A stretch of DNA of 64,000 bases, taken from positions 2,314,035 through 2,378,034 of the forward strand of contig AGIF02000001.1 of NCBI GenBank assembly GCA_000227505.4. Direction: 5' to 3'. The translations under genes and the position numbers were made by a program. Origin of the DNA: a gamma proteobacterium HIMB55. GTDB taxonomy: Bacteria > Pseudomonadota > Gammaproteobacteria > Pseudomonadales > Halieaceae. Shown in pieces: positions 5,084 to 45,013 of this stretch (positions are counted from its first letter, which is position 1; each line of letters opens with the position of its first letter). Under the pieces are notes generated by a model, which was given only the letters and a program-made list of their open reading frames with translations, did not search any database and was not told the origin of the DNA.

Positions 5084-5100
5084 TCAGTAAAGCTCAACGC

Positions 5101-5128
5101 AAGGCGGCCAATGGCCGCCTTTTTTTTG
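5101..5128 (+). terminator. Rho-independent terminator after the FAS1 gene
   Basis: A stem aaggcggcc / ggccgcctt with a 3-nt loop, followed by an uninterrupted run of T, 17 nt after the FAS1 stop codon. A canonical intrinsic terminator. Confidence 0.92.
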
Positions 5129-5236
5129 CCTGTACCTTTCACTTCCTCAACCATTTACTGGTGACAACCGAGGCTTTCATCTACGCTGAGATACTCGATC
5201 CCGTGAACTCCATCAAATAAGAAAAGGCATCACAAA

Positions 5237-5824: not shown

Positions 5825-5894
5825 GGACACTGGACAGTCTCAAATAACGCGATACGATATGGCATAACTTGTGCCAAAACCTGAGATGAGAATT

Positions 5895-6965: not shown

Positions 6966-7064
6966 CCACCGTCAACGTGAATAAATAAAAGAATCGCCTT
7001 CACAAGAAGAGCAAAGAAGTTAACAGTGGGAGCGGATAACAATAACAAACCATAGAGGATCGAC

Positions 7065-7475: not shown

Positions 7476-7594
7476 CTAGGGCCACGAAACACGCAAGCAA
7501 GACCATGCATCCATAACAAAAACCGCAGTGTTTCTCACAACCGGATTCGGTTAGCATCACTGCGCAAAAGAAAAAGTAAATCGAGGGCAGGAAA

Positions 7595-8770: not shown

Positions 8771-8781
8771 GGGGAAACAAC

Positions 8782-28560: not shown

Positions 28561-28784
28561 GAAAAAGCTCTTATTAGTATGAGCCCAAAGTGTAACAGCA
28601 TCTGCGCTTATCGACTTAGTACGAAAAATCAAAAGAGTAAAAAGCATTTGTGCTGTGAATTAATCACAAAAATATATAAAAATATTATATGAATCAATTA
28701 TTTATATTGTTTTTGGTATGGGGTGGATGAGCGAAATACTTTGAGCTAGAATCGCTGCACCACTCTAATAAATGGAAGATCTCT
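28561..28784. promoter_or_regulatory. AT-rich divergent promoter region between BCCT and TBDR
   Basis: An unusually AT-rich run (about 28660-28720, containing aatatataaaaatattatatg) lies between the divergent BCCT and TBDR genes. It would serve as an easily melted promoter or UP-element area and could bind nucleoid proteins. No exact boxes can be assigned. GGAAGA precedes the TBDR start. Confidence 0.5.
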
Positions 28785-31640
28785 ATGTTTCGTTCGAAGC
28801 CCAATGGCAAGCGCCCACTATCGCTTGCTGTAGCAGCCGCTATTACGCCTGTTTTGGCGTCAACCGCGCTTGCTCAAAACCCACAGTTAGAAGAGGTTGT
28901 GGTAACTGCGACTAAGCGCGCTGAAAACCTCCAAGACGTACCTATTTCAGTGAACGCGCTGTCTGGAGACGCAATGCGTTCACAGAACATCCTCACGTTC
29001 GATGACTATGTAGAGTTTCTACCTAACGTCGTGAGTGCAGGTGTTGGCCCAGGCCAGAAAGAAATTTACATTCGTGGCTCAGCTTCTGAGCAGTCGTCAA
29101 TCACCGTTGCACCTGCGCAGGGCTCAGCACCTGGCGTTGCACTTTACTTCGACGAAATGCCCGTTTCATTCGGCGCGAGAAACCTCGACGTATACGCAGC
29201 TGACTTGGAGCGTATCGAGGTATTGTCTGGCCCGCAGGGCACGCTGTTCGGCGCGAGTTCGCAGTCAGGTAACATGCGTCTGATCACGAATAAGCCAAAC
29301 CAAGACGAGTTCGAAGCAAGCCTCGACTTTGGGATGAGCAATACGCAGGGCGGCGCAGCTAGCAACAATGTTGAAGCCATGATCAACCTGCCACTGACAG
29401 ACAAGTTGGCAGTACGTTTCGTTGGCTATAGCGACAACCAGGGTGGTTGGATCGACAACCAGCAGGCGACGTTTACGCCAAGCGGCGAAGTTATCGACCG
29501 TAACAACTCCGCTGGTTACGGCCCGTTCTTTAGCGACTTCCCGCTGACAACAATTCGTTCGGTAACAAACACTGACGTCGTTGCAGATGATTGGAACGAA
29601 GCGACATATAACGGCTACCGCGTAGGCGTTGCCTATGACATCAATGATGACTGGAGCATGTTGGTCACTCGTATGTCGCAGGAAATCGACGTCGAAGGTT
29701 CCTTCTTGATCGACCCAAGCTTGGGTGACTCCAAATCAGAGAAGTACATTCCTGAAAGCAACGTTGATGAGTTCGACATCACAACATGGACTCTCGAAGG
29801 CCGTATCGCAAACCTCGACGTGGTTTATACCGGCGGTTACATCGATCGTGAAGTCGACGCACTAATCGACTACACCCACTACAACAACGGTGGTGGCTAC
29901 ATCACTTACTACCTCTGTAGCGGCAACATCTACTCGGGTGACAAAGCCAATGCACGTAACACCTGTTTCGACCCTACGAAGCAGTACGCTGATGCGTCGA
30001 CTAACGAGCGTACAACGCACGAATTCCGTGTCAGTAGCGATCCTGACGAGCGTTTGCGTTGGATGGCAGGCGTCTACACCAGTGACGTAGACACAACGCA
30101 CATTGGTGAGTTCCAGTACCTGTCTACAAACGATGCGTTCAGCGAGCACATTGTTAACTACTTCGGCTCCGGTGCGCCTTTCCAAGTGGGTAATACCACT
30201 ATCCCGAACACACCCGGAACCAACACAGACGGTCCAAGAAGCCCATTGACAACGTTCTACAATGACTTCACGCGGACAGAAGAAGAGACTGCGTTCTTCG
30301 GTGAGGTTCAGTTCGATCTTAACGATCGTTTGACAGCGTCATTGAGTGCACGTCGCTACAGCCTGAAGTCTCAGCTTCAGGGTGCGTCTAACTTCTCGTT
30401 CGGTTGCCGTTACGGCGCGCCGTTCACTGACCGCGACACACCTGCGGGTGCTGGTTTCGGCAACGCAGAAGTCACACCGGATGGTCGTTGCAACTCAAAC
30501 GCCTTCAGTAATGACGTTTCATCACGTCTCCTGACTCTAGGTGACTACGCAGCAAACGGTAACGATGACACTATCCTGAGAGCGACAAGCCCTAATGGCG
30601 CGCGTGATATGTTCCGTGGTGGTGGTAGCAATGCGGCGACGCTTGCTGCAATCCAGAACGGCAACCTAGATATCAGCGCCATTTCTGAGGATGGTTCAAC
30701 GCGCGAAGAAGACACCATTGTCCGCTTCTCACTGAACTTCAACCTGACCGATGATGTGATGCTTTACGGTATCTACTCAGAGGGCTACCGCCCAGCAACG
30801 CAAAACCGTAACGCCGGCCAGCTTGCAGCTAACCAGAGCGGTGTATACGAAGGTTATGTTGTACCAGCGGTAGCGGTAACGGACACACTCGAAAACATCG
30901 AATTCGGTATGAAGGGTGAGTTCCTCGATCGCACATTGCGATTGAACGCCAGCTTCTACATGACTGACATCACTGACCTTCAGGTTTCACGTTTTGACCC
31001 ATCAAACGTTGCCTTCTTGGTCTTCATGGAGAACGTTGGTGATGCGGAGTCAAACGGTGTTGATCTTGACTTCCAGTGGGCGCCTACAAACAACCTGATC
31101 ATTTCAGGTGCGGCGAGTTTCCTGGATACAAAGATCACTCGATTGAACCCTCAGCTTGAAGGTGTTGCTGTACCAGTGGGCTCTGAGCTACCACTCGCAC
31201 CAAGCTTCTCGGGTAATATCCGTGCTCGTTATGACTTCGAGCTTCCCAATATGGGTGCTAACGGCTACTTCACCGGTGCGGTTACATACCGTGGCGAGTC
31301 TGTAGCGGGCATCGTGGGTAGTGCGGCGTTCATGAACGACACAGGTATCCTCGCCTACGGCCGTGACTCTGGTCTTGGTCAGCAGGACGAAGGTGGCACA
31401 TTTGGTACTGTTGCAGACCGCAACGGTGCATTGCCCTCGAACTCACGTTTCGTGAACGAGGCAGCCACTATGGTGAACGTTGCTGCAGGTATTGAGAAAG
31501 ACAACTGGCTCGCTGAGCTGTATGTCCGCAATATCACAAGCGAAGAAGGTGCGATCGTGCAGACAGCGGGTAAGTTCTCGCCGGAAGCAACGGTTAACCG
31601 TCCTCGCACCGTGGGCCTGAGACTGTCTTATCGCTTCTGA
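28785..31640 (+). CDS. TonB-dependent outer-membrane receptor, paired with a TPR-sulfotransferase
   Basis: A 951-residue TBDR. Signal peptide cleaved near ALAQ, then a plug domain starting with the TonB box-like EEVVVTATKRAENLQDVPISV and including IYIRGSASEQ and LSGPQGTLFGASSQSGNMR. The barrel ends with RPRTVGLRLSYRF, with the C-terminal Phe. The type is that of the large CirA-like group of sphingomonads and marine gammaproteobacteria, whose ligands are mostly unknown. An extracellular segment near residues 363-388 is Tyr- and Gly-rich and has a Cys pair further on (Cys near 379 and 396). Followed by a terminator and then a TPR-sulfotransferase. Confidence 0.93.
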   Translation: MFRSKPNGKRPLSLAVAAAITPVLASTALAQNPQLEEVVVTATKRAENLQDVPISVNALSGDAMRSQNILTFDDYVEFLPNVVSAGVGPGQKEIYIRGSASEQSSITVAPAQGSAPGVALYFDEMPVSFGARNLDVYAADLERIEVLSGPQGTLFGASSQSGNMRLITNKPNQDEFEASLDFGMSNTQGGAASNNVEAMINLPLTDKLAVRFVGYSDNQGGWIDNQQATFTPSGEVIDRNNSAGYGPFFSDFPLTTIRSVTNTDVVADDWNEATYNGYRVGVAYDINDDWSMLVTRMSQEIDVEGSFLIDPSLGDSKSEKYIPESNVDEFDITTWTLEGRIANLDVVYTGGYIDREVDALIDYTHYNNGGGYITYYLCSGNIYSGDKANARNTCFDPTKQYADASTNERTTHEFRVSSDPDERLRWMAGVYTSDVDTTHIGEFQYLSTNDAFSEHIVNYFGSGAPFQVGNTTIPNTPGTNTDGPRSPLTTFYNDFTRTEEETAFFGEVQFDLNDRLTASLSARRYSLKSQLQGASNFSFGCRYGAPFTDRDTPAGAGFGNAEVTPDGRCNSNAFSNDVSSRLLTLGDYAANGNDDTILRATSPNGARDMFRGGGSNAATLAAIQNGNLDISAISEDGSTREEDTIVRFSLNFNLTDDVMLYGIYSEGYRPATQNRNAGQLAANQSGVYEGYVVPAVAVTDTLENIEFGMKGEFLDRTLRLNASFYMTDITDLQVSRFDPSNVAFLVFMENVGDAESNGVDLDFQWAPTNNLIISGAASFLDTKITRLNPQLEGVAVPVGSELPLAPSFSGNIRARYDFELPNMGANGYFTGAVTYRGESVAGIVGSAAFMNDTGILAYGRDSGLGQQDEGGTFGTVADRNGALPSNSRFVNEAATMVNVAAGIEKDNWLAELYVRNITSEEGAIVQTAGKFSPEATVNRPRTVGLRLSYRF

Positions 31641-31666
31641 TTAGATACCGAAGCGTAGTACCCTCA

Positions 31667-31695
31667 AAGGGCGGACAATTGTCCGCCCTTTTTTA
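31667..31695 (+). terminator. Strong Rho-independent terminator after the TBDR
   Basis: A perfect 24-bp palindrome (aagggcggacaa and its complement) followed by Ts. It would separate most TBDR transcription from the TPR-sulfotransferase gene starting 26 nt later, unless read-through is used. Confidence 0.92.
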
Positions 31696-31720
31696 TTTCC
31701 GAAAGAAAGATGTGACTTAA

Positions 31721-33718
31721 GTGATTGCAGAATCGATACAAAAAGCCCGAGTGGCTATGAGCAAGCGTAACTTCGATGAAGCGAGGTCTTTGCTCGACGA
31801 GGCTCTATCCGCAGAGGCGGAAAACTTTGAAGCCAAGTACACCCTTGCTGTGCTCAATCGTGCAGAGGGACAAATCGACCAGGCTAAAGCGTTGCTAAAA
31901 GCGCTTGTTGAAGAGAAGCCAGACTTTGGCCGTGGCTTCCAAGAGCTGGGTCTTTGTGAGCTCGCACTTAAACAAGAGCCTGCGGCGATAAGCGCGTTTG
32001 AGCGCGCCGTTGAAGTTGACGGATCACTCATCGAAAGCTGGAAATTTTTAGCAGCAGCGTACCGACGTAAGGGCGACTCGCGGGCCGAGCAAGCAGTGAT
32101 GCAGGTTGAGTTTTTGGCCTCGCTCCCCCAAGAGCTGCGAACGGTGATTAGCTATCTTGCCGCCAATCGGTTGGGTGACGCTGAGCGTCTCTGTCGCTAC
32201 TTCATGCAGCAAAACAAAACGCATGTTGAAGGTATGCGGCTGATGGCTGAGATAGCCACACGCACAGGGGTATTTGACGATGCTGAGTTTTTGCTGGAAA
32301 CCGTCATGGAACTCGCGCCTGATCATATCGAGGCTGAAGTTCAGCTGGCACACGTGCTTCTCAGGCGGCAGCGTTTCCACAAAGCGCATAAGCGTGTGAA
32401 GGCCATCTACGAAAGAGACAAAAACCCATCTTCGCAAGTTCAGGCGCTCTACGCGTCCGTATGTTTTGGTGTCGGTGAAAACGACGAGGCCATCAAAACC
32501 TACCAAGAAATGATTCGCGTTTCACCCAATGATCCGCAACTTAGGGTATCGCTGGCGCACATCTACAACGCCACGGGCGAATCTCCGAAAGCAGTCGATT
32601 TATTCAAGCAAGCCTATGGCTTAAAACCTGATTTTGGCGACGCATTCTGGAGCCTGGCGAATACCAAGTCTTATCGCTTTACAGGAGCAGAGCTGGCCGC
32701 CATGACGGAGTGCGTCAACGCGCCTTCTACGCCACAAATTGATAAAACACAGATGCAATTTGCGCTAGGTAAGGCATACGAAGACAGTAAAGATTACGAC
32801 ACTGCCTTTAGCCATTACCAAGCGGGCAACACTCTAAAGCGCGAGACTTCGAACCACAGTAAAGAGCAGCTTGATATTCGAATTTCAACGCAGCTCGATG
32901 TATGCACTGCCGAGCTATTCGAGCGCCTAAAGGATGTGGGGCACAATGCGCCCGATCCCATCTTCATTTTGGGGCTACCTCGGGCGGGGTCGACGCTACT
33001 TGAGCAAATTCTTGCATCACATTCGAAAGTCGATGGCACGATGGAGCTGCATGACATTCTCGACCTCGCAAAGCGTCTGCGAGGCCGAGATAAAGCGAGC
33101 GATCCCAGTCCTCGCTATCCGCGCATCCTGGAGGAGCTACCGACTGAACGGTTTGCGCAGTTTGGCCAGCAATTCATTGAGGATACACGCGCCTACCGAG
33201 GGACCGCGCCGTATTTCATCGACAAGATGCCCAATAACTTTTTCCATATCGGCTTGATCAAGCTGATTCTTCCAAACGCAAAGGTGATCGACGCACGGCG
33301 CCACCCCATGGCCTGCTGTTTTAGCGGGTACAAGCAGTTATTTGGTGAGGGCCAAGAGTTCTCGTGCGGGCTGGAGGAAATCGGGAATTACTATCGCCAG
33401 TATGTTGATTTAATGAATCACTGGGATGAAGTTTTGCCTGGTTTTGTTCTGCGAGTTCAACACGAAGACGTCATCGCTGACCTCGAGGGGCAGGTCCGGC
33501 GAATACTCGATTTTTGTGGCTTAGAGTTTGAGGAGTCCTGCGTTGAGTTTCATAAAACAAAGCGCACCGTTCGAACCCCAAGTGCGGAACAGGTACGGCA
33601 GCCAATCAATAAATCAGGTGTGGATCAGTGGTGTAATTTCGAGTCTCACTTAGACCCTCTGAAACACGCACTCGGTCCTGACATTCTTGAGGCCTACGGA
33701 ATAACCCCACCTGCATGA
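31721..33718 (+). CDS. TPR-repeat sulfotransferase
   Basis: A 665-residue cytoplasmic protein. Residues about 1-370 are tandem TPR helices (repeated A/L-rich pairs such as YTLAVLNRAEGQIDQAKALL). The C-terminal part (about 412-640) is a sulfotransferase: 5'-phosphosulfate loop GLPRAGSTLLEQ with Arg421, DKMPNNFFHIGLI, and the 3'-phosphate site ARRHPMACCFSGYKQLF. The domain order resembles bacterial TPR-sulfotransferases of the Sulfotransfer_3 group, related in fold to tyrosylprotein sulfotransferase. TPRs suggest a protein or peptide partner. GTG start is likely; an ATG 12 codons in is possible. It overlaps the next sulfotransferase gene by 4 nt. Confidence 0.9.
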   Translation: MIAESIQKARVAMSKRNFDEARSLLDEALSAEAENFEAKYTLAVLNRAEGQIDQAKALLKALVEEKPDFGRGFQELGLCELALKQEPAAISAFERAVEVDGSLIESWKFLAAAYRRKGDSRAEQAVMQVEFLASLPQELRTVISYLAANRLGDAERLCRYFMQQNKTHVEGMRLMAEIATRTGVFDDAEFLLETVMELAPDHIEAEVQLAHVLLRRQRFHKAHKRVKAIYERDKNPSSQVQALYASVCFGVGENDEAIKTYQEMIRVSPNDPQLRVSLAHIYNATGESPKAVDLFKQAYGLKPDFGDAFWSLANTKSYRFTGAELAAMTECVNAPSTPQIDKTQMQFALGKAYEDSKDYDTAFSHYQAGNTLKRETSNHSKEQLDIRISTQLDVCTAELFERLKDVGHNAPDPIFILGLPRAGSTLLEQILASHSKVDGTMELHDILDLAKRLRGRDKASDPSPRYPRILEELPTERFAQFGQQFIEDTRAYRGTAPYFIDKMPNNFFHIGLIKLILPNAKVIDARRHPMACCFSGYKQLFGEGQEFSCGLEEIGNYYRQYVDLMNHWDEVLPGFVLRVQHEDVIADLEGQVRRILDFCGLEFEESCVEFHKTKRTVRTPSAEQVRQPINKSGVDQWCNFESHLDPLKHALGPDILEAYGITPPA

Positions 33719-34341
33719 TCTTTTCGTCGAGCAGAAAGTTCGTTTTCTTTGCCGTCCCTAAAACAGGGACTCACTCAGTGAGAGAACAACTCCGCCCTTT
33801 ACTGGCGGAGGGCGATTGGGAACAACAACTGCTGACGGGGAGGATGCTAAGCCCACTCAAACCACTTGCGGAGATAGGTCACGGCCACATTTCATATGTA
33901 CAACTGGCCTCAATCGTTGGCGAACATTCCGTGCGAGACATGCACTGCTTCGCGTTTGTTCGTCACCCAATCGACCGATTCATGTCGGCCTGCGCCTTCC
34001 TCGCGCGAACGGATCCAAGTTACAACGACGACCCTATTGCCTGGTCGCAACGCGCATTTTCGCGCCCCCAATTTCGCAGCCGTGTGCTCATTCGACCACA
34101 GACTGAGATGCTGACCGACACTCATGGGGAGCTGGCGATGTCGTATATAGGTCGTTACGAGTCTCTCCAAACCGACTTAAATGCGGTTTTAGAGCACCTA
34201 GGGGCACCCAATGCAGAGCTTTCTCAACGGAACGTCACCCAAAACCAAAAACCACTCCTCACCGGTTCTTCGGCGTTTATCGAAGAGCTAAAAGACTTTT
34301 ATGAAGCGGACTTCAGGCTGCTGGGCTACGACCGGGACTGA
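33715..34341 (+). CDS. Short sulfotransferase-family protein
   Basis: A 208-residue protein of the Sulfotransfer_2 type: phosphosulfate loop FFAVPKTGTHSVREQL (residues 11-26) and the CFAFVRHPIDRFMSACAF 3'-phosphate segment. The body is short, so the acceptor may be small or the partner TPR protein may supply the specificity. Start overlaps the preceding stop by ATGA, so both sulfotransferases are made together. The 3' end overlaps the convergent hydroxylase gene by 29 nt. Confidence 0.85.
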   Translation: MIFSSSRKFVFFAVPKTGTHSVREQLRPLLAEGDWEQQLLTGRMLSPLKPLAEIGHGHISYVQLASIVGEHSVRDMHCFAFVRHPIDRFMSACAFLARTDPSYNDDPIAWSQRAFSRPQFRSRVLIRPQTEMLTDTHGELAMSYIGRYESLQTDLNAVLEHLGAPNAELSQRNVTQNQKPLLTGSSAFIEELKDFYEADFRLLGYDRD

Positions 34342-35281
34342 ACTCCGCTACACGCCGTGGTCGTAGAGCCGCTGCGAGAATACGCTGGTTGATGATGGGG
34401 TTGATACCCACTTTATTTGACTCAGTTACGAGCACTCTAGGATTCGGTAGCAGCTGACCCGCTGTTCGCTCCAACACCTTTCGATACTCTGGAAAAGCGA
34501 CCTCCGTAAATCCATGAAGACTCCAAATCTCTCGCCAGTCGTGCACAAGATCGAGGAGTAAATGACGGTACTGGCGCATGATACTTGGATCGTTTTCAAT
34601 ATTAGCCTCGCAGTCCTGCAGCACCTGTTCGACGATCGCCAACATCTCGCCAGGCGCCATAACAGGTGCGACCGGAAATTGTTCGGTCCGCAAGGCAAAT
34701 TGCTCGCCGTCTCCTGGCAACACGTGAATAGGTGACATCGTCTCCGCTTCACGAACCGTCTGCCAAAATCTCGAGGAGCCCGCGAGGTCAATCACCAGAT
34801 GCACACGTCGCACATCGCTTGCGTTGACTACTCGGTGGCGCCGCCAAGAGTCGAACAACCAACTCTCTCCCGCACCCATATGCACAGATTCTTCACCGCA
34901 ATAAAAAACGACGCCTGGGTCAGTGATGATCGGCACATGAATGCGAACGCGACTCACCCAGTGATAGTTAAAATCGACGTGCTCCGCGACCTCTGCGCCG
35001 GGCTCGAGGCGCATAAGCCGCGATCTAGCAACCACCTCATTGAATGAAGAGACCACCTGACTCAAGTAAGGCGAAGAGGTCAGCGCTTTAGTGGCTTTCA
35101 TTGCGCCATCGAACGCATGGTTCATTTCACCGTTCACGGAAACGAGGGGAACCGCCGAATTACCTGGCAAGCCAGATGGGTGCGCCAGCCAAAAATCGTT
35201 AGGCAAACCTGCCACCTCATTACTGAGTGCAGCAACGTCAAAACGCCAGGGTAATTTCAAAAATGGCTGGTTAAATTCCAT
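34313..35281 (-). CDS. Aspartyl/asparaginyl beta-hydroxylase-like 2OG-Fe(II) oxygenase
   Basis: A 322-residue protein with an Asp/Asn hydroxylase-type cupin in its N-terminal half. Iron ligands can be read as His101-x-Asp103 (EVAEHVDFNYHW) and a distal His (His149 or His161 in SWRRHRVVNASDVRRVHLVIDL). RVRIHVPI is the usual strand after the ligand pair. The family hydroxylates Asp/Asn side chains or free amino acids; the target here is unknown. The C-terminal third is not recognised. Two starts are possible (35299 and 35281), neither with a good ribosome-binding site. It sits tail to tail with two sulfotransferases. Confidence 0.8.
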   Translation of the reverse strand: MEFNQPFLKLPWRFDVAALSNEVAGLPNDFWLAHPSGLPGNSAVPLVSVNGEMNHAFDGAMKATKALTSSPYLSQVVSSFNEVVARSRLMRLEPGAEVAEHVDFNYHWVSRVRIHVPIITDPGVVFYCGEESVHMGAGESWLFDSWRRHRVVNASDVRRVHLVIDLAGSSRFWQTVREAETMSPIHVLPGDGEQFALRTEQFPVAPVMAPGEMLAIVEQVLQDCEANIENDPSIMRQYRHLLLDLVHDWREIWSLHGFTEVAFPEYRKVLERTAGQLLPNPRVLVTESNKVGINPIINQRILAAALRPRRVAEFSPGRSPAA

Positions 35282-35399
35282 GTGTGAATTACGCCACATT
35301 TACTCTGAATATGACAGATTGCAGTCGAATTGAATTGAATGCTTAGGGCTCAAAGCATTACCATACGCGCCCTCACTTCCACCGCAATAGCAGGCTCGC

Positions 35400-35879
35400 A
35401 TGTCAACGGCAGAACTCCCAGATCACGTACTTGTAGCGCTCCGCCGAATTATTCGTGCAACGGACCTACACTCGCGGAAATTGGGAAAGAAAACCGGGCT
35501 TACCACGCCTCAACTCGTCATTATTCAAGCAGTGGGTAGCCTGAAGGATCCAACCGTCTCCGATATCGCGAAGGCCGTCAGTCTCAGCTTGGCAACAGTG
35601 ACCACGATTTTAAACAGGCTAGAGCGGAACGGCGTCGTTAATCGCGCCCGCTCAGCTGTCGACCGGCGACGCGTTATTGTGACGCTTACAGAGGAAGGCC
35701 AGACGCTTCGCGGGTCTGCACCCAAACCACTTCAGGACAGCTTTGTCGCCAAATTCAGTCGGCTAGAAACGTGGGAGCAACATTCAATTGTTGCGGCACT
35801 CGAGCGCGTTGCGACAATGATGGACGCAGATGAGCTCGATGCAGCGCCGCTACTGGCGAGCGGTGATGAGGTGCTTTAA
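35400..35879 (+). CDS. MarR-family transcriptional regulator
   Basis: A 159-residue winged-helix regulator: SDIAKAVSLSLATVTTILNRLERNGVV is the recognition helix region and RSAVDRRRVIVTLTEEGQ the wing, both typical. An effector pocket cannot be predicted. The last 4 nt overlap the end of the convergent valine-type operon, so it may control that operon, but this is contextual. Confidence 0.9.
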   Translation: MSTAELPDHVLVALRRIIRATDLHSRKLGKKTGLTTPQLVIIQAVGSLKDPTVSDIAKAVSLSLATVTTILNRLERNGVVNRARSAVDRRRVIVTLTEEGQTLRGSAPKPLQDSFVAKFSRLETWEQHSIVAALERVATMMDADELDAAPLLASGDEVL

Positions 35880-36775
35880 CCGAGTGATTTAGTCAGAGAC
35901 TTCATAACGATCGAGAAGTCGTCTCTTCCTAGGCCTTGCTCCTGAAGCGTCCGGTAAACGTCAACAGCGCGCTTACCGAACTCAGCGTCAATACCTGACT
36001 GCTCCGCGAGCTCATTCGCAAGCCCTAAATCCTTAGCCATGAGATCAACCATAAAGCCAGGCTTGTAGTCGTTACCCGCTGGCGCGCCTTGCATGACGCC
36101 GGGCCAAGGGTTGTAAACTTGAAGCGACCAGTTATTGCCCGAACTCGCTTTCATAATCTCAGATTGGACAGCTGGATCGAGCCCATTTGCCGCACCAATT
36201 GCCAAGGCCTCGCAGGTGCCAATCATGTGAATGGCGAGCAACATATTATTTGCTGCCTTTGCCACCTGGCCCGCCCCATCGGGTCCTGCATGGAAAATTT
36301 TCTCTTCGTTGCCCATGCCCTTGAGGACTTCTTTCGCTCTCACGAAGGCTTCGTCCGTCCCGCCACACATAAAGGCAAGGGTGCCTGCCTGAGCCGCGGC
36401 AACACCGCCAGAGACGGGCGTATCCATAAACGCAAGATTTGCAGCACGAGCTGCCTCGTGAAGCTCACGCGCTGTGGCGGCATCAATGGTGCTGGCATCA
36501 AGCACGAGCGTTCCCGCAGGCAGCATTGAAAACACGCCGTCATCACCCATCATGACCGACTTCACGTGCTTGCCCGCTGGTAGCATCGAAAAGACAACGT
36601 CAGCCCCTGAGGCGGCATCAACCGCAGAGGTGGCCGCTGTGGCACCCGCCGCTACAACATCGGAAAGCGCCGCCTCAGAGAGATCAAACGCCGATACGGA
36701 CCAACCTGCTTTGAGCAGGTTTTTAGCCATCGGCCCGCCCATATTTCCAAGGCCTATGAATGCAATGCTTGGCAT
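35876..36775 (-). CDS. mmsB: 3-hydroxyisobutyrate dehydrogenase
   Basis: A 299-residue NAD-dependent beta-hydroxyacid dehydrogenase converting 3-hydroxyisobutyrate to methylmalonate semialdehyde in valine degradation. The signature FIGLGNMGGPMAKNLLKAGW, DTPVSGGVAAAQAGTL and the catalytic Lys in GAGQVAKAANNMLL are intact. The frame is open to a TTG at 36787; the ATG at 36775, preceded by GGGGGGAG, is the start. Last gene of a four-gene operon, 36 nt after the hydrolase. Confidence 0.93.
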   Translation of the reverse strand: MPSIAFIGLGNMGGPMAKNLLKAGWSVSAFDLSEAALSDVVAAGATAATSAVDAASGADVVFSMLPAGKHVKSVMMGDDGVFSMLPAGTLVLDASTIDAATARELHEAARAANLAFMDTPVSGGVAAAQAGTLAFMCGGTDEAFVRAKEVLKGMGNEEKIFHAGPDGAGQVAKAANNMLLAIHMIGTCEALAIGAANGLDPAVQSEIMKASSGNNWSLQVYNPWPGVMQGAPAGNDYKPGFMVDLMAKDLGLANELAEQSGIDAEFGKRAVDVYRTLQEQGLGRDDFSIVMKSLTKSLG

Positions 36776-36811
36776 GGCTCCCCCCAATCTATTTTTGTTA
36801 GTTCGTCATTA

Positions 36812-37918: not shown

Positions 37919-38703
37919 CGGTTTTTCCACTCTGGTGTTCGTTTTTCTAAAAAGGCGTTCACGCCTTCCCTTTGATCTTCGGTTGAGAACAACGCGACGA
38001 ACTCATCGCGCTCTGCCACCAACCCGGCGCTAATCGATATGTCTCGAGCCGAATGAATAAGCCTTTTACAGGCGGCGATCGATGTTGGACTTTGATCCGC
38101 CGCACGTTTTGCCAAATCAATCGCCGCTGAGAGCGATGCACCCTGCTCGACTACTTCCTCAACAAGACCGAGCGTCAATGCCTTTTCAGCAGATACTCGC
38201 TCGCCGCAGAGAATCATGCGCTTTGCCCAACCCTCGCCAACAAGCTGTGCTAAGCGCTGCGTACCACCGGCACAAGGCAGCAATCCAACCCGAGCCTCAG
38301 GTAAGGCAAGTGCTGCGTGCGACTCGGCGATGCGAATGTCACAAGCCAAAGCCACTTCCAGCCCACCACCCATGGCGTAACCGTTAATGGCCGCGATTGA
38401 TACACCACGGTAATCCGCGAGCGTCTCGAAGGCAGCGCCAAACGCATCACCCATCGCACCTGCAGCAACGGGATCACCACTGGCAAATTGATTCAAGTCA
38501 GCACCTGCTGAAAAAAACTTCTCCCCTTGCCCCGTGATGACCAGCGCCCGAACGTCAGCCATCGCATTGAGATTGGTAACAACTGCCTCAAGTGCGGGGA
38601 GGCTCTCAAGATCCCAAGTATTGGCTGCAGGGTTGTTTATAGTGACCGTGGCAATGCCATCTTCGATGGCAACCAATACCTTCTCGCTGGGACTGACTCT
38701 CAT
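37915..38703 (-). CDS. Enoyl-CoA hydratase (methacrylyl-CoA hydratase role)
   Basis: A 262-residue crotonase-family protein. Oxyanion loop residues are visible at FFSAGADLNQF and AMGGGLEVALACDIRI, and the general acid/base region at LPEARVGLLPCAGGTQRL, so both catalytic glutamates appear conserved. In this operon it would hydrate methacrylyl-CoA to 3-hydroxyisobutyryl-CoA. It overlaps both neighbours by 4 nt. Confidence 0.9.
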   Translation of the reverse strand: MRVSPSEKVLVAIEDGIATVTINNPAANTWDLESLPALEAVVTNLNAMADVRALVITGQGEKFFSAGADLNQFASGDPVAAGAMGDAFGAAFETLADYRGVSIAAINGYAMGGGLEVALACDIRIAESHAALALPEARVGLLPCAGGTQRLAQLVGEGWAKRMILCGERVSAEKALTLGLVEEVVEQGASLSAAIDLAKRAADQSPTSIAACKRLIHSARDISISAGLVAERDEFVALFSTEDQREGVNAFLEKRTPEWKNR

Positions 38704-39866
38704 TGAATTACCTCCAGCGCGCCATCCATTAGCGCTTGTCGTGAAATGATGACCCGCATGATTTCGTTGGTTCCCTCAAGAATTTGGTGCACGCGCGTAT
38801 CACGAACATAGCGCTCCATCGGATACTCGCGGATGTAACCGTAGCCTCCGAATAGTTGCAATGCGTCGTTACAGATCTTGAAACCCGCATCCGTTGCGAA
38901 GCGTTTGGCCATGGCGCAATACGTTGGGGCGCTAGCGTCTTTGTTATCGAGTTTGCTGGCGGCCAACCGAATCATCTGTCGTGCTGCAACCAACTCGGTA
39001 AGCATGTCGGCAATCTGGAATTGCGTGTGCTGAAACCCCGCAATGGTTGAATCGAACTGTTTGCGGTCCTGTACATAGGCTGTGGCATCGACAATCGCTT
39101 GTTGGGCTGTGCCCACTGAGCACGTTGCAATGTTGATACGTCCACCGTCGAGCCCTTCCATTGCGATGGAGAATCCCTGCCCCTCCTCACCCAAACGGTT
39201 GGCAGCAGGCACACAGACGTCATCAAAACTTATTTGACGGGTGGGCTGTGCATTCCACCCCATCTTGTGTTCTTTCTTGCCGTAGCTGATGCCCTCAAGG
39301 TCAGCTGGCACTAAAAACGCAGTTATCCCTCGAGCGCCCGAATCACCCGTTCTCGCCATCACTACAAGCACGTCGGTATCACCCGCACCCGAGATAAACA
39401 CCTTGCTTCCCGAGATGCGATACACATCACCATCGCGCTTAGCCGAAGTTCGGAGCGACGCCGCATCAGAACCGGCTCCCGGCTCGGTTAAACAGTAAGA
39501 CGCGAGCTTCTCCCCAGAAACGAGCGCAGGACACCACTCATCGATCACCGACTGCTGGCAGTATTTGCCAATCATCGCCGTCGCCATGTTGTGAATAGTC
39601 AAAAAGGCTGCTGTGGTGGTACATCCCCGTGCCAGCTCTTCCACGATCAGGCTCGCATCAAGTCGCGACATGCCGAGACCGCCCGCTTGCTCGGGCGTAT
39701 ACATACCCATGAAGCCAAGGTCACCGGCGGCTTTCAGTGCAGCTTTGGGAAAAATTGATTCCTCATCCCATTGCGCCGCATGCGGACGAAACTCCGACTG
39801 CGCAAATTCTCGCGCACTCGCCGCATACGCCCGCTGCTCTTCGCTTAATTCGAAATCCATAGCCAT
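38700..39866 (-). CDS. Acyl-CoA dehydrogenase (isobutyryl-CoA dehydrogenase-like)
   Basis: A 388-residue FAD enzyme. CLTEPGAGSDAASLRTSA and VFISGAGDTD match the short/branched-chain group; GGYGYIREYPMERYVRDTRVHQILEGTNEIMR is the standard C-terminal signature, including the Glu of IL-EGTNE. With its operon partners it should oxidise isobutyryl-CoA to methacrylyl-CoA. The frame runs upstream to 40082, but GAGAG precedes the ATG at 39866, where family homology begins (MAMDFELSEEQR). First gene of the operon. Confidence 0.93.
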   Translation of the reverse strand: MAMDFELSEEQRAYAASAREFAQSEFRPHAAQWDEESIFPKAALKAAGDLGFMGMYTPEQAGGLGMSRLDASLIVEELARGCTTTAAFLTIHNMATAMIGKYCQQSVIDEWCPALVSGEKLASYCLTEPGAGSDAASLRTSAKRDGDVYRISGSKVFISGAGDTDVLVVMARTGDSGARGITAFLVPADLEGISYGKKEHKMGWNAQPTRQISFDDVCVPAANRLGEEGQGFSIAMEGLDGGRINIATCSVGTAQQAIVDATAYVQDRKQFDSTIAGFQHTQFQIADMLTELVAARQMIRLAASKLDNKDASAPTYCAMAKRFATDAGFKICNDALQLFGGYGYIREYPMERYVRDTRVHQILEGTNEIMRVIISRQALMDGALEVIQ

Positions 39867-40113
39867 TGATCTCTCGTGCTTCTGAGGTCGGTAGTCTAAT
39901 CCATGAACACACATGGCAGGGATACCTTTATGCCAACTCGGCGTCACAGGTTGCTGGTCGACGGTCTCACCGTCCATTAATTCAAAAAATTTGCAATCTT
40001 CTCCCGACCGCTCCGCGGATGGAGTTCGCGATTGCAACGCACGGTGGTATTGTCTGTTTAAGCCTGTAAGCTCGCAAAACAATACGATTTTTATTCATTG
40101 AAAATAACAACAA

Positions 40114-40938
40114 ATGTCTAAGCTCGAAGACACTACCGTCGCTTTTGCACACACCATCGAAAAGTTGGGGACAGAAGAGTTCATACCCGCTCTTGCCGAT
40201 ACCTTATGTGCTTTTGCGGACGCCGACGATGCTACTGTCATCGTCTACGGCTACGAGGAAATGCCGTCGGTCGCCTTTGCCCGGCCCCTCAAAGGAAAGT
40301 ATGAAAGCACCCTGAGCACTTATTTAACCGGCCCCTTCTTACTCGATCCGTTTTACAGGGCAGCAGCGTATGACGAACACTTTGGGGTGTTTCGCCTCGC
40401 AGACCTTGCCCCCGCCAGCTTCCGAATGTCTGAGTACTACAAGAACTGGTATCGAACTTGTGGCTACGAGGATGAATGCGGACTCTTGGTAAAATTGTCC
40501 AAAGACAACTTCCTCAACATTTCGATTGGTCTCACGGATGGGGGGGCGCGGTTCAAGAAAAAGCATGCCAGGGCGCTATCAGATGTTTACGCGATAACGA
40601 GCGCGCTTTGCCGCAAACACTTCGACGACATTCTCAAAGCCAAAGCACCTACGATGCGGGAGCGGATGCACCGATCATTGGCAGCGTTTGGCGCGAGCAT
40701 GCTTACCAAGCGCGAACGGCAGACAGTAGAGCTCGTTTTACTCGGTCACAACACGCGTCTCATCGCCGAAAAATTAGGTATCTCCGTCGAGACGGTCAAA
40801 CTGCACCGAAAACACGCCTACGCAAAGCTCGATATCAGCTCACAAGCCGAGTTATTTTTTCTGTTTATGGAAGCCCTTTCACACTGGTCAGGTGACCCCG
40901 ATACTGATCCCCTTATCTCTTATATGGGGAGTAACTAA
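40114..40938 (+). CDS. LuxR-type transcriptional regulator
   Basis: A 274-residue regulator with a C-terminal LuxR helix-turn-helix (about 198-255: LTKRERQTVELVLLGHNTRLIAEKLG, then SVETVKLHRKHAYAKL). The N-terminal 180 residues are a sensory domain without an obvious autoinducer-binding signature (no matching WxxYD pattern). It ends 2 nt before the TPR-sulfotransferase start codon, so it is co-transcribed with it and is the likely regulator of the sulfotransferase/TBDR module. No luxI-type synthase is in the window, which suits an orphan sensor. Confidence 0.88.
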   Translation: MSKLEDTTVAFAHTIEKLGTEEFIPALADTLCAFADADDATVIVYGYEEMPSVAFARPLKGKYESTLSTYLTGPFLLDPFYRAAAYDEHFGVFRLADLAPASFRMSEYYKNWYRTCGYEDECGLLVKLSKDNFLNISIGLTDGGARFKKKHARALSDVYAITSALCRKHFDDILKAKAPTMRERMHRSLAAFGASMLTKRERQTVELVLLGHNTRLIAEKLGISVETVKLHRKHAYAKLDISSQAELFFLFMEALSHWSGDPDTDPLISYMGSN

Positions 40939-40940
40939 GC

Positions 40941-42503
40941 GTGGCAAACCTGTCACTGGCTGATGGTTTCGCTGCGTTGAATCGCGGCGACCTCGCGACT
41001 GCAGGCGAGGCCTGCAAACAAGCGCTTAGCGATAATGCGCAACACGTGCCAGCACACTTCCTCGTTGGCCTCGTTGCCCTTGAGGGACAACAACGACGGG
41101 TTGCTCACGATGCATTTAAGTCGGTGGTTAAGCTCGACCGAAACCACGCTGCAGCATGGGCGCACTTAGCAAAGTTAAACGTCGGCGAGGGCCGGATAGC
41201 GGCGGCAGAATCAGCGTTGAAAGAGGTTCGACGGATTCAGCCTAACGACCCTATGGTGATTGAGCTGACCGGCACAGTGCTCAATTCGCTCGGAGAGTAC
41301 GAAGCTGCGGAGCTCTTTTTTGAGCGCGCGCATCAGATGGTGCCCAATAATCCCTCAACATTGATGAACCTCGGCAATGTGCGAGTGTTTTTAGGAAAGA
41401 TCGACGATGCGGTAGGCCTGTTCAAGCAAGCGATTGCCCTCGAGCCCAATAGCGCGCAGTGCCACTGGGGGCTTGCCAACTCAGAGAAAGCCAAGAGTCG
41501 AGAGCATATCGATCAAATGCAGGGCTTGATCGAAACCGGACGTCAGTCAAAACGGTCGCAAGGCTTTCTGCATTACGCTATCGGCAAAGAGAGTGAAGAC
41601 CTAGGCGATTGGCCATCGGCGTTTTCAGCCTTTAGTCAGGGCGCAAAAGCCCGGCGTGAAACCGTTGAATTTAATGAAGCCGACGAAACTGCCATGTTTG
41701 AAGCTATCAAAGCCACTTACACGGCAGACTGGCTAACGGCGCGTCCATCCGGCGTGAGAGATCCTTCACCCATATTTGTGCTGGGTCAGCCGCGAACGGG
41801 TACTACGCTCATCGAGCGCGTGATTACCAGCCACTCCCAAGTACTCTCAGCGGGTGAGCTGCAGCAATTTGGTCTCGCCGTTCGTCGCGCGTCGAGACAT
41901 AACGACCCTAAGCGCTTCTCTAGGGATCTGTTCCTAGCCGCAGCAGAGGTCGACCCCGCTGAAATCGGACAAATGTATCTCCGCTCTACCGCCAAACAAC
42001 GTGCGAAGAAGCCCTTTTTCGTCGACAAATTGCCGGTTAATTATCTCAATGTGCCTCTGATTCTAGCCGCACTGCCAAATGCCAAAATTGTCCACCTTGT
42101 GAGAGGACCAATGGACGCCTGCTTTGCGAGTTTCAAGCAACTGTTTGCCGATGCATATCTGCATTCCTACGATCAAAGCGAGATGGCAAGACACCACGCA
42201 CGGTATCGTGACCTCATGGCACATTTTCATGCGGAGTTCCCAGGAAGAATCATCGATGTGAGCTACGAGGATGCGGCAAGAGATCTTGAGCCCAATGCCC
42301 GCAGGTTGATTGCTGCATTGGGACTCGAATGGGAAGACGCCTGCCTGAACTTCCACGAGAGTAGCTCAGGGGTAGCGACCGCAAGCTCAGTACAGGTTAG
42401 AGAACCCGCACACACGCGCTCTATCGGACGCTGGCGTCGCTACGAGACCGAGCTTGCACCGATGGTTGCAGAGCTAGAGCGGCTGGGGGTTCCCTTAGAT
42501 TAG
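40941..42503 (+). CDS. TPR-repeat sulfotransferase, second copy
   Basis: A 520-residue paralogue of the protein at 31721-33718 with fewer TPRs (about residues 1-240). The sulfotransferase part begins near 277 with VLGQPRTGTTLIERV (Arg285 in the phosphosulfate loop), continues with FFVDKLPVNYLNVPLIL and the 3'-phosphate-type LVRGPMDACFASFKQLF, and ends with an SVQVREP segment like the SAEQVRQP of the other copy. GTG start, 2 nt after the LuxR gene. The TBDR starts 132 nt downstream. Likely partner: a protein or peptide, possibly the neighbouring TBDR (inference). Confidence 0.9.
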   Translation: MANLSLADGFAALNRGDLATAGEACKQALSDNAQHVPAHFLVGLVALEGQQRRVAHDAFKSVVKLDRNHAAAWAHLAKLNVGEGRIAAAESALKEVRRIQPNDPMVIELTGTVLNSLGEYEAAELFFERAHQMVPNNPSTLMNLGNVRVFLGKIDDAVGLFKQAIALEPNSAQCHWGLANSEKAKSREHIDQMQGLIETGRQSKRSQGFLHYAIGKESEDLGDWPSAFSAFSQGAKARRETVEFNEADETAMFEAIKATYTADWLTARPSGVRDPSPIFVLGQPRTGTTLIERVITSHSQVLSAGELQQFGLAVRRASRHNDPKRFSRDLFLAAAEVDPAEIGQMYLRSTAKQRAKKPFFVDKLPVNYLNVPLILAALPNAKIVHLVRGPMDACFASFKQLFADAYLHSYDQSEMARHHARYRDLMAHFHAEFPGRIIDVSYEDAARDLEPNARRLIAALGLEWEDACLNFHESSSGVATASSVQVREPAHTRSIGRWRRYETELAPMVAELERLGVPLD

Positions 42504-42634
42504 CGCCGGAGTATACTAGTTGGTGATGTAATCAAAGCGCCGACGTCTAGGCCACACGACAGACGACAAAACACAAACAAAAAACCGAGCGATTTCTCCG
42601 TTTTCACCGCTCAGCGCCACCCGAGGAAACCACT

Positions 42635-45013
42635 ATGTCAAAAGTTTTTGGCACAAAACCCAATACAAAGCTCGTACTGCCCCTAGCGGTATCGGCAGCG
42701 CTTATCAGCACAGGACCCGTAGTCGCACAAACACTTGAAGAAGTGATTGTTGTGGCCACCAAACGTGAGCAGGGGGTTATGGATGTACCTCTGGCAATCA
42801 CCGCGCTATCAGGTGACTTCATCGAGGATACTAACCTTAACGATGTGAAGGATCTTATTTCCTACACGCCAGGTGTTAGCGGCAACTCTCAAGATTCCTA
42901 CATCGACGCGGTGAGCATTCGCGGTGTTCGCACACAGGACTTCGGTGTTGGTGGCGATCCATCTTCAGCATTTTTCAAAAACGACCTCTACGAGGGACGA
43001 AACGGTTCAGCGGTAACAAGTCTGTTCGACGTTGAGCGTGCCGAGATTTTGCGTGGTCCTCAAGGCTTCCTGTTCGGCCGTAACTCGATCGGCGGTGCTT
43101 TCAGTGTGCACACGCGCAAAGCAGAAATCGGCTCTAACGATGCCTTTATTGATTTCGACTTCGGACAACGCGAGCACGCGGTTTTCGAAGGTGCGGTGAA
43201 CATCCCGATTAACGATAGTTTTGCGATGCGTTTGGCAGGCTATAGCTCGCACGAGGAAGGCTTCGCCAAAAACGTATTTTCGGGCCGAGATGAAATCGAC
43301 CACAGCAAGAAAGCGATTCGATGGTCGACGCGATATGAATCAGACGCACTATCCATCGACACTGTGGTCGACTGGGAAGACCGAAAGCAATCCGGTTCAA
43401 TGTACCGCGCCATCGATAAAGGCGACATTTGGGATGCCCTGGATGGCTACATTGTTGATGACACAACCATCAACGGGAACAACCAACAAATCGACTCTGA
43501 CCTCGAAGGCGGTGACGCTGATATTGGCGATTTGCTGACGATCGGTGTCTTCATTGACTACGATTTAGGCTTTGCAACACTGACTTCAAACACCGGTTAT
43601 AAAGACCACGACTACTACTATTCGGAAGATTATGACGGCACGTCGCTGAATATTAATAATTTCCAATTCGAGCAATCCGGCCAGTACTTCCAGCAAGAAC
43701 TGCGCCTCACTAGTAATGATGACGGTCCGTTGAGCTGGTACACCGGTGTCTCCTACTACGACGAAGACCTCGATGCTGAGTTCACCGCTATTGGCTCTGA
43801 AGATCTCATGTGCCAGTACTACCTGAACTATTACGCCGAGTACTACGGCTATGAGTTCTACAGCGGTTGTTCTGACTACTACACCGACTTCTACCCAAGT
43901 GCAGACGGCAACCTTGTGGAAACGGGTATGCTCAAAGGCAAGTACTCAGGCTGGGCCGCTTATCTGAATCTTGACTATCAAGTGACAGATGAGCTCGTCG
44001 CCTCGGTAGGTGTTCGTTACACCAAGGACGACAAAGACTTTGGCATCTTAGTGCCCGAGCCTGAGAGCTACTTGGGTCCCTACTTCACCTACGGCTTTGC
44101 AACTGCCGAGTACATCGAAGACTCTAAGTCTTGGAGCGATACAACGGCGCGCTTTGCTGTGACGTGGACGCCAAATGATGGCGCCATGTTCTTCGCTAAT
44201 TACACACAAGGCTTCAAGTCAGGTGGCTTTGGTAGTTTCTGGATCGAAGACGCTAACGGAAACCCACCTGCCTATGAGACGGGTATCACGCAGGGAGACG
44301 GCTATTTACCCGGCTCCTTCCGTCCGGAGCAAATGGACTCCTACGAGATCGGCTTCAAGACGAGCTATCTCGACGGTGCGGGTAACTTCGACCTCACCGC
44401 GTTTATGTATGACTACACTGACGCGCAGGTCATTAGCTACGTAGACGTCGATTTCGAAGACGACGGAGTCGTCGACGCGTTCTCTGGGCGAGTGCTTAAC
44501 GTTGGTCAGACCGACGGTATGGGCGTTGAAGCTTCAACCACTGTCGCAGTGAACGAATACACGACTCTTTACCTATCACTGGGCTACCTCAATACCGAGG
44601 CAACAGGCCTTGAAGAGATTTGCAGTCTCGATGGGCCCGGTGGCGAAGGCACTGGTTGTGAAGGAAGCCGCGTCTTCTGGGCTCCAAAGCTAACGGGTGC
44701 GGGCAAGGTAGACGTCGACGTTCCGGTAAACGGTGGCACCATCGCATCGAGCTTCGAAGTGTCTTACGAAAGCGAGCGTGGTGGCAGCTGGGAAGGCTAT
44801 CGTGAGGGCATGATTGGCTCATACGCAGTCGCAAACCTGCGTGTTGGCTATGAGTCTGACAATAACTGGTACGTGCAGGCCTACGCCGAGAACTTGTTCA
44901 ACGAGTTTACGTGGGACGGCTACAACGCCAACGGCGGTATTCTGCCTTCGCACTTCTTTGGACCAATGCGCCCAAGAACGATCGGCATCCGCACTGGTAT
45001 TAGCTGGGACTAA
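42635..45013 (+). CDS. TonB-dependent receptor with a Tyr-rich acidic loop
   Basis: A 792-residue TBDR. Signal peptide ends near VVAQ; the plug starts EEVIVVATKREQGVMDVP and includes VSIRGVRTQDFG and ILRGPQGFLFGRNSIGGAF; the barrel ends RTIGIRTGISWD. The extracellular region has two unusual tyrosine clusters: residues 322-334 (DHDYYYSEDYD) and 393-420, where 11 of 28 residues are Tyr interspersed with Glu/Asp and two Cys (393 and 412). Such acidic Tyr clusters are what tyrosine sulfotransferases modify in other organisms. The last residue is Asp, not the common aromatic. Its ligand is unknown. GAGGAAA precedes the start. Confidence 0.92.
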   Translation: MSKVFGTKPNTKLVLPLAVSAALISTGPVVAQTLEEVIVVATKREQGVMDVPLAITALSGDFIEDTNLNDVKDLISYTPGVSGNSQDSYIDAVSIRGVRTQDFGVGGDPSSAFFKNDLYEGRNGSAVTSLFDVERAEILRGPQGFLFGRNSIGGAFSVHTRKAEIGSNDAFIDFDFGQREHAVFEGAVNIPINDSFAMRLAGYSSHEEGFAKNVFSGRDEIDHSKKAIRWSTRYESDALSIDTVVDWEDRKQSGSMYRAIDKGDIWDALDGYIVDDTTINGNNQQIDSDLEGGDADIGDLLTIGVFIDYDLGFATLTSNTGYKDHDYYYSEDYDGTSLNINNFQFEQSGQYFQQELRLTSNDDGPLSWYTGVSYYDEDLDAEFTAIGSEDLMCQYYLNYYAEYYGYEFYSGCSDYYTDFYPSADGNLVETGMLKGKYSGWAAYLNLDYQVTDELVASVGVRYTKDDKDFGILVPEPESYLGPYFTYGFATAEYIEDSKSWSDTTARFAVTWTPNDGAMFFANYTQGFKSGGFGSFWIEDANGNPPAYETGITQGDGYLPGSFRPEQMDSYEIGFKTSYLDGAGNFDLTAFMYDYTDAQVISYVDVDFEDDGVVDAFSGRVLNVGQTDGMGVEASTTVAVNEYTTLYLSLGYLNTEATGLEEICSLDGPGGEGTGCEGSRVFWAPKLTGAGKVDVDVPVNGGTIASSFEVSYESERGGSWEGYREGMIGSYAVANLRVGYESDNNWYVQAYAENLFNEFTWDGYNANGGILPSHFFGPMRPRTIGIRTGISWD

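Follow-up and report, generated by a model that had tools for sequence, protein, structure and literature searches.

A 64,000-nucleotide stretch of the genome of the gammaproteobacterium HIMB55 (Halieaceae), referred to below as the window, carries two modules in which the gene of a TonB-dependent receptor (TBDR) lies beside that of a sulfotransferase (ST) fused to tetratricopeptide repeats (TPR-ST). The genome is a single contig of 2.74 Mb. We analyzed the two modules together with their relatives in other genomes. Every gene of the layout described in the initial annotation was found at its place when open reading frames (ORFs) and Pfam domains were examined, so that both modules were confirmed. 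Their core features are as follows (aa, amino acids; nt, nucleotides):

28785..31640, + strand: TBDR1, clade A receptor, 951 aa; Plug 5.8e-14, TonB barrel 7.4e-21; signal peptide by eye
29868..29978, + strand: candidate sulfation loop of TBDR1, residues 362-398, DYTHYNNGGGYITYYLC...C; conserved Tyr and Cys, between strands 344-362 and 399-417
31721..33718, + strand: TPR-ST1; Sulfotransfer_3 9.3e-51 plus TPRs; no signal peptide seen
40941..42503, + strand: TPR-ST2; Sulfotransfer_3 3.1e-45 plus TPRs
42635..45013, + strand: TBDR2, clade B receptor, 792 aa; Plug and barrel
43604..43639, + strand: TBDR2 residues 324-335 (DHDYYYSEDYDG), an acidic Tyr motif at the alignment position of the TBDR1 loop
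43805..43909, + strand: TBDR2 residues 391-425, a further segment rich in Tyr and containing Cys; up to 11 Tyr per 30 residues

Gene order differs between the modules, the first reading TBDR-ST and the second LuxR-type regulator-ST-TBDR. A third pair lies outside the window in the same genome (locus L001), where TBDR3 (4627-7122) and TPR-ST3 (7203-9215) are followed by a gene for a betaine/carnitine/choline transporter (BCCT). ST1 shares 39% identity with ST3 and 31% with ST2 over the shared part. Relatives of TPR-ST1 with 80-81% identity occur in two metagenome-assembled genomes (MAGs) named to phylum or class only, and the next named one is in a Halieaceae MAG (L020, 70%).

Pairing of TPR-sulfotransferases with TonB-dependent receptors

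We compared six single-contig genomes of the family, that of HIMB55 (G000) and G058, G112, G001, G012 and G027, of which G000 and G058 are near relatives, and took as the TPR-ST set all matches to our model A1 at E<=1e-30 (n = 22). Twenty of these 22 genes lie directly beside a TBDR gene, 17 of them on the same strand, as against 1 of the 31 other Sulfotransfer_3 genes examined (G027 1281233). These controls represent 31 of the 32 such genes in the six genomes, G027 756031 being left out; their adjacency was read from the DNA for G012 and G027 (16 genes) and for one gene each in G001 and G112, and was judged for the remainder by distance to listed TBDRs. The TBDR list of G000, G058, G112 and G001 was drawn from Pfam Plug or barrel matches (plus TBDR3), so that a TBDR missed by Pfam would be overlooked there. 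HIMB55 itself has four Sulfotransfer_3 genes; all three TPR-STs adjoin a TBDR, whereas the single non-TPR gene does not. For the two unpaired TPR-STs, the nearest TBDR is 2.3 kb off in one case (G012 108693), and the other (G112 116232) belongs to a same-strand run of TBDR, sulfatase, flavin mononucleotide (FMN) dehydrogenase and ST. Chance pairing was considered as an explanation and is ruled out by the family-matched control.

A same-strand TBDR gene at most 600 nt upstream of the TPR-ST was found at 76 of 80 GTDB loci, the best 80 among the matches listed. These loci were picked by similarity to ST1-ST3, and the results therefore describe that subfamily; the upstream TBDR was scored without overlap filtering of ORFs, since under such filtering antisense ORFs hide genes at some loci. 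Three of the other four loci are cut by a contig edge and one (L084) has no TBDR, which leaves 76 of 77 assessable loci. At L084 (6945-11986) the TPR-ST stands directly behind a cysD-like gene (PAPS_reduct family) and a cysNC-like gene (a fusion of GTPase and adenosine 5'-phosphosulfate (APS) kinase), that is, behind genes that make the sulfate donor 3'-phosphoadenosine 5'-phosphosulfate (PAPS). The gap between TBDR and ST has a median of 83.5 nt and a maximum of 299 nt (62 loci), with 80 and 131 nt in the window, and thus offers little room there for a precursor peptide. The co-occurrence of TBDR and TPR-ST, which the initial annotation had put forward as a check, is therefore strongly positive. 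More broadly, a TPR-ST match is present in 136 of the 140 family genomes searched, and relatives with a receptor also occur in alphaproteobacterial and other gammaproteobacterial genomes; cultured carriers of the module include Erythrobacter sp. NAP1, Neptunicella marina and Colwellia hornerae. Moreover, the distance matrices of STs and TBDRs correlate (r 0.91 for 16 pairs, with 0 of 5000 within-genome shuffles as high).

Two gene arrangements in G112 depart from the simple pair. At locus L131 (5254-8598) a sulfatase and an FMN-dependent dehydrogenase separate a clade A TBDR from its TPR-ST, and at L163 (3330-12955) five genes on one strand follow each other in the order Asp/Asn hydroxylase (186 aa), TPR-ST, TBDR, TPR-ST, TBDR.

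The TPR-sulfotransferase and the receptor loop

The AlphaFold2 model of TPR-ST1 (mean predicted local distance difference test score (pLDDT) 92) displays about nine helix pairs that form a TPR superhelix (approximately residues 1-335), followed by a sulfotransferase domain (approximately 411-629). Using Foldseek, we found O-GlcNAc transferase (OGT) and SPINDLY as the first matches, via the TPR half. The only sulfotransferases among the best 50 matches listed are tyrosylprotein sulfotransferases (TPSTs), namely TPST2, tick TPST and TPST1; those to TPST2 and TPST1 have E values of 5e-8 to 1e-7 and template modeling (TM) scores by target of 0.60-0.67, and the alignments of all three cover 276-294 columns, at about 20% identity. 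A catalytic-domain profile of 32 sequences was searched against the PDB, a more sensitive approach than a single-sequence search with the ST1 domain. TPSTs came out on top (8w5z 3.9e-14, 5wrj 7.5e-14), followed by the polyketide-synthase sulfotransferase 4gox (1.9e-12), TPST2 entries (2e-11), CurM (1.3e-10) and the cytosolic SULTs (about 1e-3). As a profile and among the 50 Foldseek matches listed, the catalytic domain is thus closest to animal TPSTs among solved structures, an order that the ST1 domain alone does not give; its fusion to TPRs suggests a protein substrate.

Across 34 STs, residues R421, E442, K502, R527 and S621 do not vary, and S535 is conserved in at least 90%. Both PAPS motifs are kept and align with those of TPST: a PRAGSTLL-type 5'-phosphosulfate-binding motif (5'-PSB) with R421, and a 3'-phosphate-binding motif (3'-PB) with R527 and S535. 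A C-terminal S-x-x-Q-V-x-x-P stretch and a Lys are likewise conserved, as in the TPST alignment. E442 (34/34) lies between the PAPS motifs and aligns with the second Glu of the TPST GEET sequence; we take the TPST residues aligned here, the catalytic Glu included, to have their usual functional roles. In sulfotransferases, a His or Glu base sits between the two PAPS motifs, according to PMC6637879. In the sequence and model of TPR-ST1, which begin directly with TPR helices, we saw no signal peptide and no hydrophobic N-terminal or membrane segment; the enzyme should thus be cytoplasmic, where PAPS is, and an APS kinase gene is present. TPST is a Golgi type II membrane protein. As no such anchor is seen here, we describe the TPR-ST as working like a TPST and do not file it as one.

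On the receptor side, the AlphaFold2 model of TBDR1 (mean pLDDT 80) has FyuA as its best Foldseek match (7.5e-48). Between strands 344-362 and 399-417 runs a loop that is extracellular by strand counting from the C terminus of the model. Of the 17 extracellular-loop positions conserved to at least 95%, 7 fall within it. Clade A is the group formed by TBDR1, TBDR3 and their relatives. D362, Y363, Y366, Y376, C378 and C394 are invariant in all 34 aligned clade A receptors, giving the motif D-Y-x-x-Y…Y-x-C…C. Written as the regular expression [DE]Y..Y.{3,14}[YF].C, this clade A pattern occurs in 60 of 63 ST-adjacent GTDB TBDRs and, in four genomes, in 7 of 15 ST-adjacent TBDRs versus 1 of 116 others. 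The single non-adjacent carrier is the receptor of the TBDR-sulfatase-dehydrogenase-ST run, so that all 8 carriers among 131 TBDRs belong to a run with a TPR-ST.

Clade B, composed of TBDR2 and its relatives, lacks the clade A pattern. Its 18 aligned receptors, mostly close relatives, all have a D-Y-x-Y-x-E-D-Y-D-G core, and this acidic Tyr motif falls in the TBDR1 loop columns of a common alignment. The second segment of TBDR2 (391-425) is Tyr-rich in 18/18 relatives while variable in sequence, and its 11 Tyr per 30 residues is the highest value among the 22 TBDRs of the genome. In a FastTree tree, clade B lies among unlinked TBDRs, apart from clade A, suggesting that the Tyr-rich state beside a TPR-ST arose at least twice.

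The enrichment in tyrosine was also visible in counts. By the maximal number of Tyr per 30 residues, the three ST-linked TBDRs of HIMB55 rank 1-3 of 22 (11, 10 and 7), with at most 6 in the others. For the same measure in four genomes (15 adjacent and 116 other TBDRs), a stratified permutation gave 0 of 20000 results as extreme; because the TBDRs compared are akin to one another, such p-values overstate independence. Among nine residue types compared per 30 aa, Tyr showed by far the strongest difference (p 3.5e-8; Asp 0.008; Thr 0.011; others above 0.05). Within the loop as delimited by the common alignment, there are 7.4 Tyr in the 12 TBDRs linked to STs scoring above 500 bits (run member included) versus 2.06 in 115 unlinked TBDRs, and 2.0 in the 4 linked to low-scoring STs; a [DE]Y pair is found in 11/12, 34/115 and 2/4 of these groups, respectively. 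Five additional linked TBDRs were taken from two further genera, and in two of them the maximum is 8 Tyr per 30 aa. General loop composition was considered as the source of the Tyr richness and is ruled out by the nine-residue and same-loop comparisons.

Divergent TPR-STs are also found beside TBDRs without a Tyr-rich loop (G112 799716, 997753 and 1367485; G001 3072052). Two of these TBDRs have a related loop with the sequence RDQTDLL.

In four of the 140 family genomes no TPR-ST was matched at E<=1e-30; three of these genomes are at least 96% complete and the fourth (G016) 83%. We searched these four with the clade A receptor model (A3) and read 20 loci among the matches listed. Within this scope, clade A receptor and TPR-ST are jointly absent: none of these 20 loci encodes a clade A-like receptor, and the clade A motif is in no fetched ORF. 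The best whole-ORF A3 score in the ST-free genomes, among the matches listed, was 412.6 bits, versus 408 for the best unlinked TBDR of four ST-bearing genomes and at least 715 for the eight motif-bearing TBDRs of the latter.

Neighbouring and accessory genes

The core genes of the window are accompanied by the following:

26605..28647, - strand: BCCT-family transporter; Pfam BCCT 1.3e-179; divergent from TBDR1
33715..34341, + strand: short sulfotransferase, predicted accessory; Sulfotransfer_2 3.2e-10; 4 nt overlap with the ST1 stop
34313..35299, - strand: Asp/Asn beta-hydroxylase-like 2-oxoglutarate (2OG) oxygenase, predicted accessory, tail-to-tail; Asp_Arg_Hydrox 4.1e-15
35400..35879, + strand: MarR-family regulator; Pfam MarR 5.6e-13; beside the accessory pair in some loci
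40114..40938, + strand: LuxR-type regulator of the second module; Pfam GerE 9.3e-13

We clustered the neighbours of 93 TPR-ST loci, 77 of them from GTDB in which an ST was detected and 16 representing the STs of four genomes. A gene of the BCCT cluster lies within seven ORFs of 41 of these loci, in 34 cases at gene offset -2 or +1, which hints at quaternary-ammonium ligands. Relatives of the short sulfotransferase are near 15/93 loci, the hydroxylase or a relative near 15/93, and both near 12; of the three loci with the hydroxylase alone, two are accounted for by module 2 of the window and its ortholog, which pick up the gene of module 1. A MarR regulator is near 16/93 loci. The LuxR regulator 2 nt ahead of TPR-ST2 (40114-40938 versus 40941) is as initially annotated. 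At 17 of the 20 loci fetched for ST2 relatives, the ST gene is preceded by an ORF of 274-290 aa, or by a fragment cut off at the contig edge, as a candidate regulator. Among the rarer neighbours are genes for aldehyde dehydrogenase, GMC oxidoreductase and a dipeptidase, and a sulfatase appears once. Among the annotated recurring neighbour clusters (neighbours of at least 110 aa), we recognized no enzyme for ribosomally synthesized and post-translationally modified peptides (RiPPs), precursor peptide, or cyclase or protease; nor did the annotated clusters include a RaxX-like precursor gene, a type I exporter or polysaccharide genes.

The Asp/Asn hydroxylase, which the initial annotation had listed with the first module, is near only 15/93 loci and is not a core part; we regard it as a predicted accessory of some loci. 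The initial annotation had given the gene as 34313-35281. Counted from the first ATG it reaches 35299, and 35281 fits the next ATG. H107, D109, H155 and R165 are invariant in 13 aligned sequences (its own included, and with one G058 gene entered twice), and presumably serve as iron and 2OG ligands. All five Asp_Arg_Hydrox genes of four complete genomes sit in TBDR or TBDR-ST neighbourhoods: two in module 1 and its ortholog, two after another TBDR, and one (L163 12395-12955) at the head of the G112 run.

Other TBDRs of HIMB55 also have modification enzymes nearby. At L011 (7219-13861) a 1003-aa TBDR is directly followed by a TPR-Asp/Asn hydroxylase, with a divergent TPR-2OG-Fe(II) oxygenase, and coordinates indicate a TBDR-hydroxylase arrangement of this type in G058. 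At L017 (5560-12000) a TBDR precedes same-strand Trp_halogenase, SapC and Cupin_8 genes, a second kind of such neighbourhood.

Proposed receptor sulfation, its alternatives and known systems

The initial annotation had suggested that the modules serve to modify the receptor itself or a substance that it imports. The co-occurrence on which this view relied holds; as to function, we infer that the receptor is the favored substrate, given the TPST-like catalytic domain, the conserved Tyr-rich loop in the main group and the short TBDR-ST gap. In the main group, the TPR-ST probably adds sulfate to tyrosines in the loop of its partner receptor prior to export. According to this model, each such enzyme would work in the cytoplasm as a tyrosine-protein sulfotransferase that uses PAPS and serves only the adjoining TBDR: nascent, still unfolded receptor would be bound by the OGT-like TPR superhelix, and the TPST-like domain would sulfate the tyrosines of one loop ahead of Sec export. 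Once the receptor is assembled, the loop would be located outside, where it would present a patch that is both anionic and aromatic and that a disulfide probably closes. Its likely role would be the recognition of a cationic, perhaps quaternary-ammonium, nutrient, as suggested by the BCCT carriers nearby. In some loci, the second sulfotransferase and the Asp/Asn-hydroxylase-like oxygenase may add a further modification.

Several observations weigh against this model. For the loop of TBDR1 the confidence of the model is low, with ten-residue means of pLDDT at about 52-74. The ST1 domain alone ranks 4gox (1.3e-6) and CurM (6e-6), both polyketide sulfotransferases, above TPST1 (6.4e-4), and the TPST-first order appears only with the profile. 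Tyrosine density does not follow linkage strictly: the other three of the five additional linked TBDRs have only 6 Tyr per 30 aa (one of them with the clade A pattern), the ST-linked TBDR G112_3111154 has no [DE]Y in its loop, and 21/115 unlinked TBDRs reach at least 6 Tyr per 30, with 1/115 reaching at least 8. Tyr-dense TBDRs that have no ST include G001_84304 with 9, and G001_2266426, G001_2508561 and G112_565820 with 7. The four TPR-STs with low A1 scores (170-412 bits) adjoin TBDRs without a Tyr cluster (maximum 4-5 per 30 aa), and in three of these cases ST and TBDR are not codirectional, so that the Tyr-loop rule is not general for all TPR-STs. Finally, the clade A motif, which probably arose once, needs just two changes on the tree, and an independent-pairs (sign) test had no power; most statistics thus rest on two lineages. 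The conserved loop tyrosines may also serve ligand binding unmodified.

The last point leads to the alternative that most deserves a test, namely that the TPR-ST transfers sulfate to a peptide or metabolite, either secreted or imported, and that the Tyr loop is an unmodified aromatic cage recognizing this sulfated or quaternary-ammonium compound. Tyr/Trp cages bind quaternary-ammonium groups, and the BCCT carrier near 41/93 loci makes an imported quaternary amine plausible; these neighbours fit either receptor sulfation or an unmodified cage. A ligand-directed enzyme would also agree with the aldehyde dehydrogenase, GMC oxidoreductase, dipeptidase and single sulfatase among the neighbours, with the ranking of polyketide sulfotransferases before TPSTs in the single-sequence search, and with a published list for relatives of Pontixanthobacter (PMC10040529), in which genes annotated as lasso peptide B2, sulfotransferase and aspartyl beta-hydroxylase form clusters with close gene numbers. 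We nevertheless consider this alternative unlikely, since the catalytic domain is nearer to TPSTs as a profile and by fold, the TPR fusion suggests a protein substrate, the gap between the two genes is short, and no RiPP enzyme was seen among the annotated recurring neighbours of at least 110 aa.

Alternatively, the TPR-ST could modify another envelope component, such as lipopolysaccharide, exopolysaccharide or another outer-membrane protein, its link to the TBDR being one of co-regulation only. Bacterial Sulfotransfer_2-type enzymes often act on polysaccharide, and such a short sulfotransferase is near 15/93 loci. This explanation appears improbable to us: paralogous TPR-STs of one genome each have their own TBDR, the pairs co-diverge, and the annotated neighbour clusters contain no polysaccharide genes. 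A neutral association, in which the genes descend as an operon from a single ancestor and the receptor family has its Tyr loop independently of the enzyme, would be compatible with a possible single origin of the clade A motif, yet clade B stands beside a TPR-ST with a different Tyr-acid motif in the same loop, the loci listed from the four ST-free genomes include no clade A-like receptor, and two more pairs from two further genera reach 8 Tyr per 30 aa. We therefore hold this last explanation to be very improbable.

If receptor sulfation is true, receptor specificity would be set in part by a modification invisible to genome annotation, which binding studies on recombinant receptors would miss. 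It would represent a new way for bacteria to tune uptake and a bacterial counterpart to sulfated animal receptors; one enzyme per receptor would offer a ready genetic handle, and the TPR-guided tyrosine sulfotransferases would form a set of practical use. To our knowledge, side-chain sulfation is not a recognized feature of TBDRs, and a literature search, with subscription journals mostly outside it, retrieved nothing recognizable on TBDR-sulfotransferase modules or sulfated TonB receptors. One may go further and envision a dedicated, widespread post-translational modification of TBDRs, in which TPR-STs, in some lineages together with Asp/Asn hydroxylases, write sulfotyrosine clusters on one extracellular loop. 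These would form an aromatic cage, sulfonated in the manner of a p-sulfonatocalixarene, that receives quaternary-ammonium nutrients, which the neighbouring BCCT carrier would then take across the inner membrane. This wider picture is speculative, and we regard it as doubtful.

Tyrosine sulfation as such is already known from TPSTs and from RaxST (PMC6637879). The TPR-ST resembles animal TPST1 and TPST2 (5wri/5wrj, 3ap1; tick 8w5z) in its PAPS motifs, aligned Glu and C-terminal S-x-x-Q-V-x-x-P stretch; unlike them, it is bacterial, is fused to about nine TPR helix pairs, has no anchor or signal peptide that we could see, and is encoded beside one receptor. RaxST of Xanthomonas is described in the same source as a bacterial PAPS-using tyrosylprotein sulfotransferase modelled on TPST2. 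The RaxST-RaxX system is thus similar in the PAPS-dependent tyrosine sulfation of an exported bacterial protein product, which for the TPR-ST is our proposal. It differs in that RaxST targets a small peptide secreted by a dedicated exporter, RaxAB (PMC6637879), whereas the presumed substrate of the TPR-ST is an outer-membrane receptor, and no peptide gene was seen at the loci. With OGT and SPINDLY, which modify proteins, the TPR-ST shares a TPR superhelix fused to a transferase, and it differs from them in catalytic domain and chemistry. The hydroxylase shares with the AspH family the Asp_Arg_Hydrox domain and its conserved His, Asp and Arg, with a weak family score and a place as accessory in some loci only. 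Finally, FyuA, FptA and Fiu have the same fold as TBDR1, which adds to it an extracellular loop with Tyr and Cys and a neighbouring sulfotransferase.

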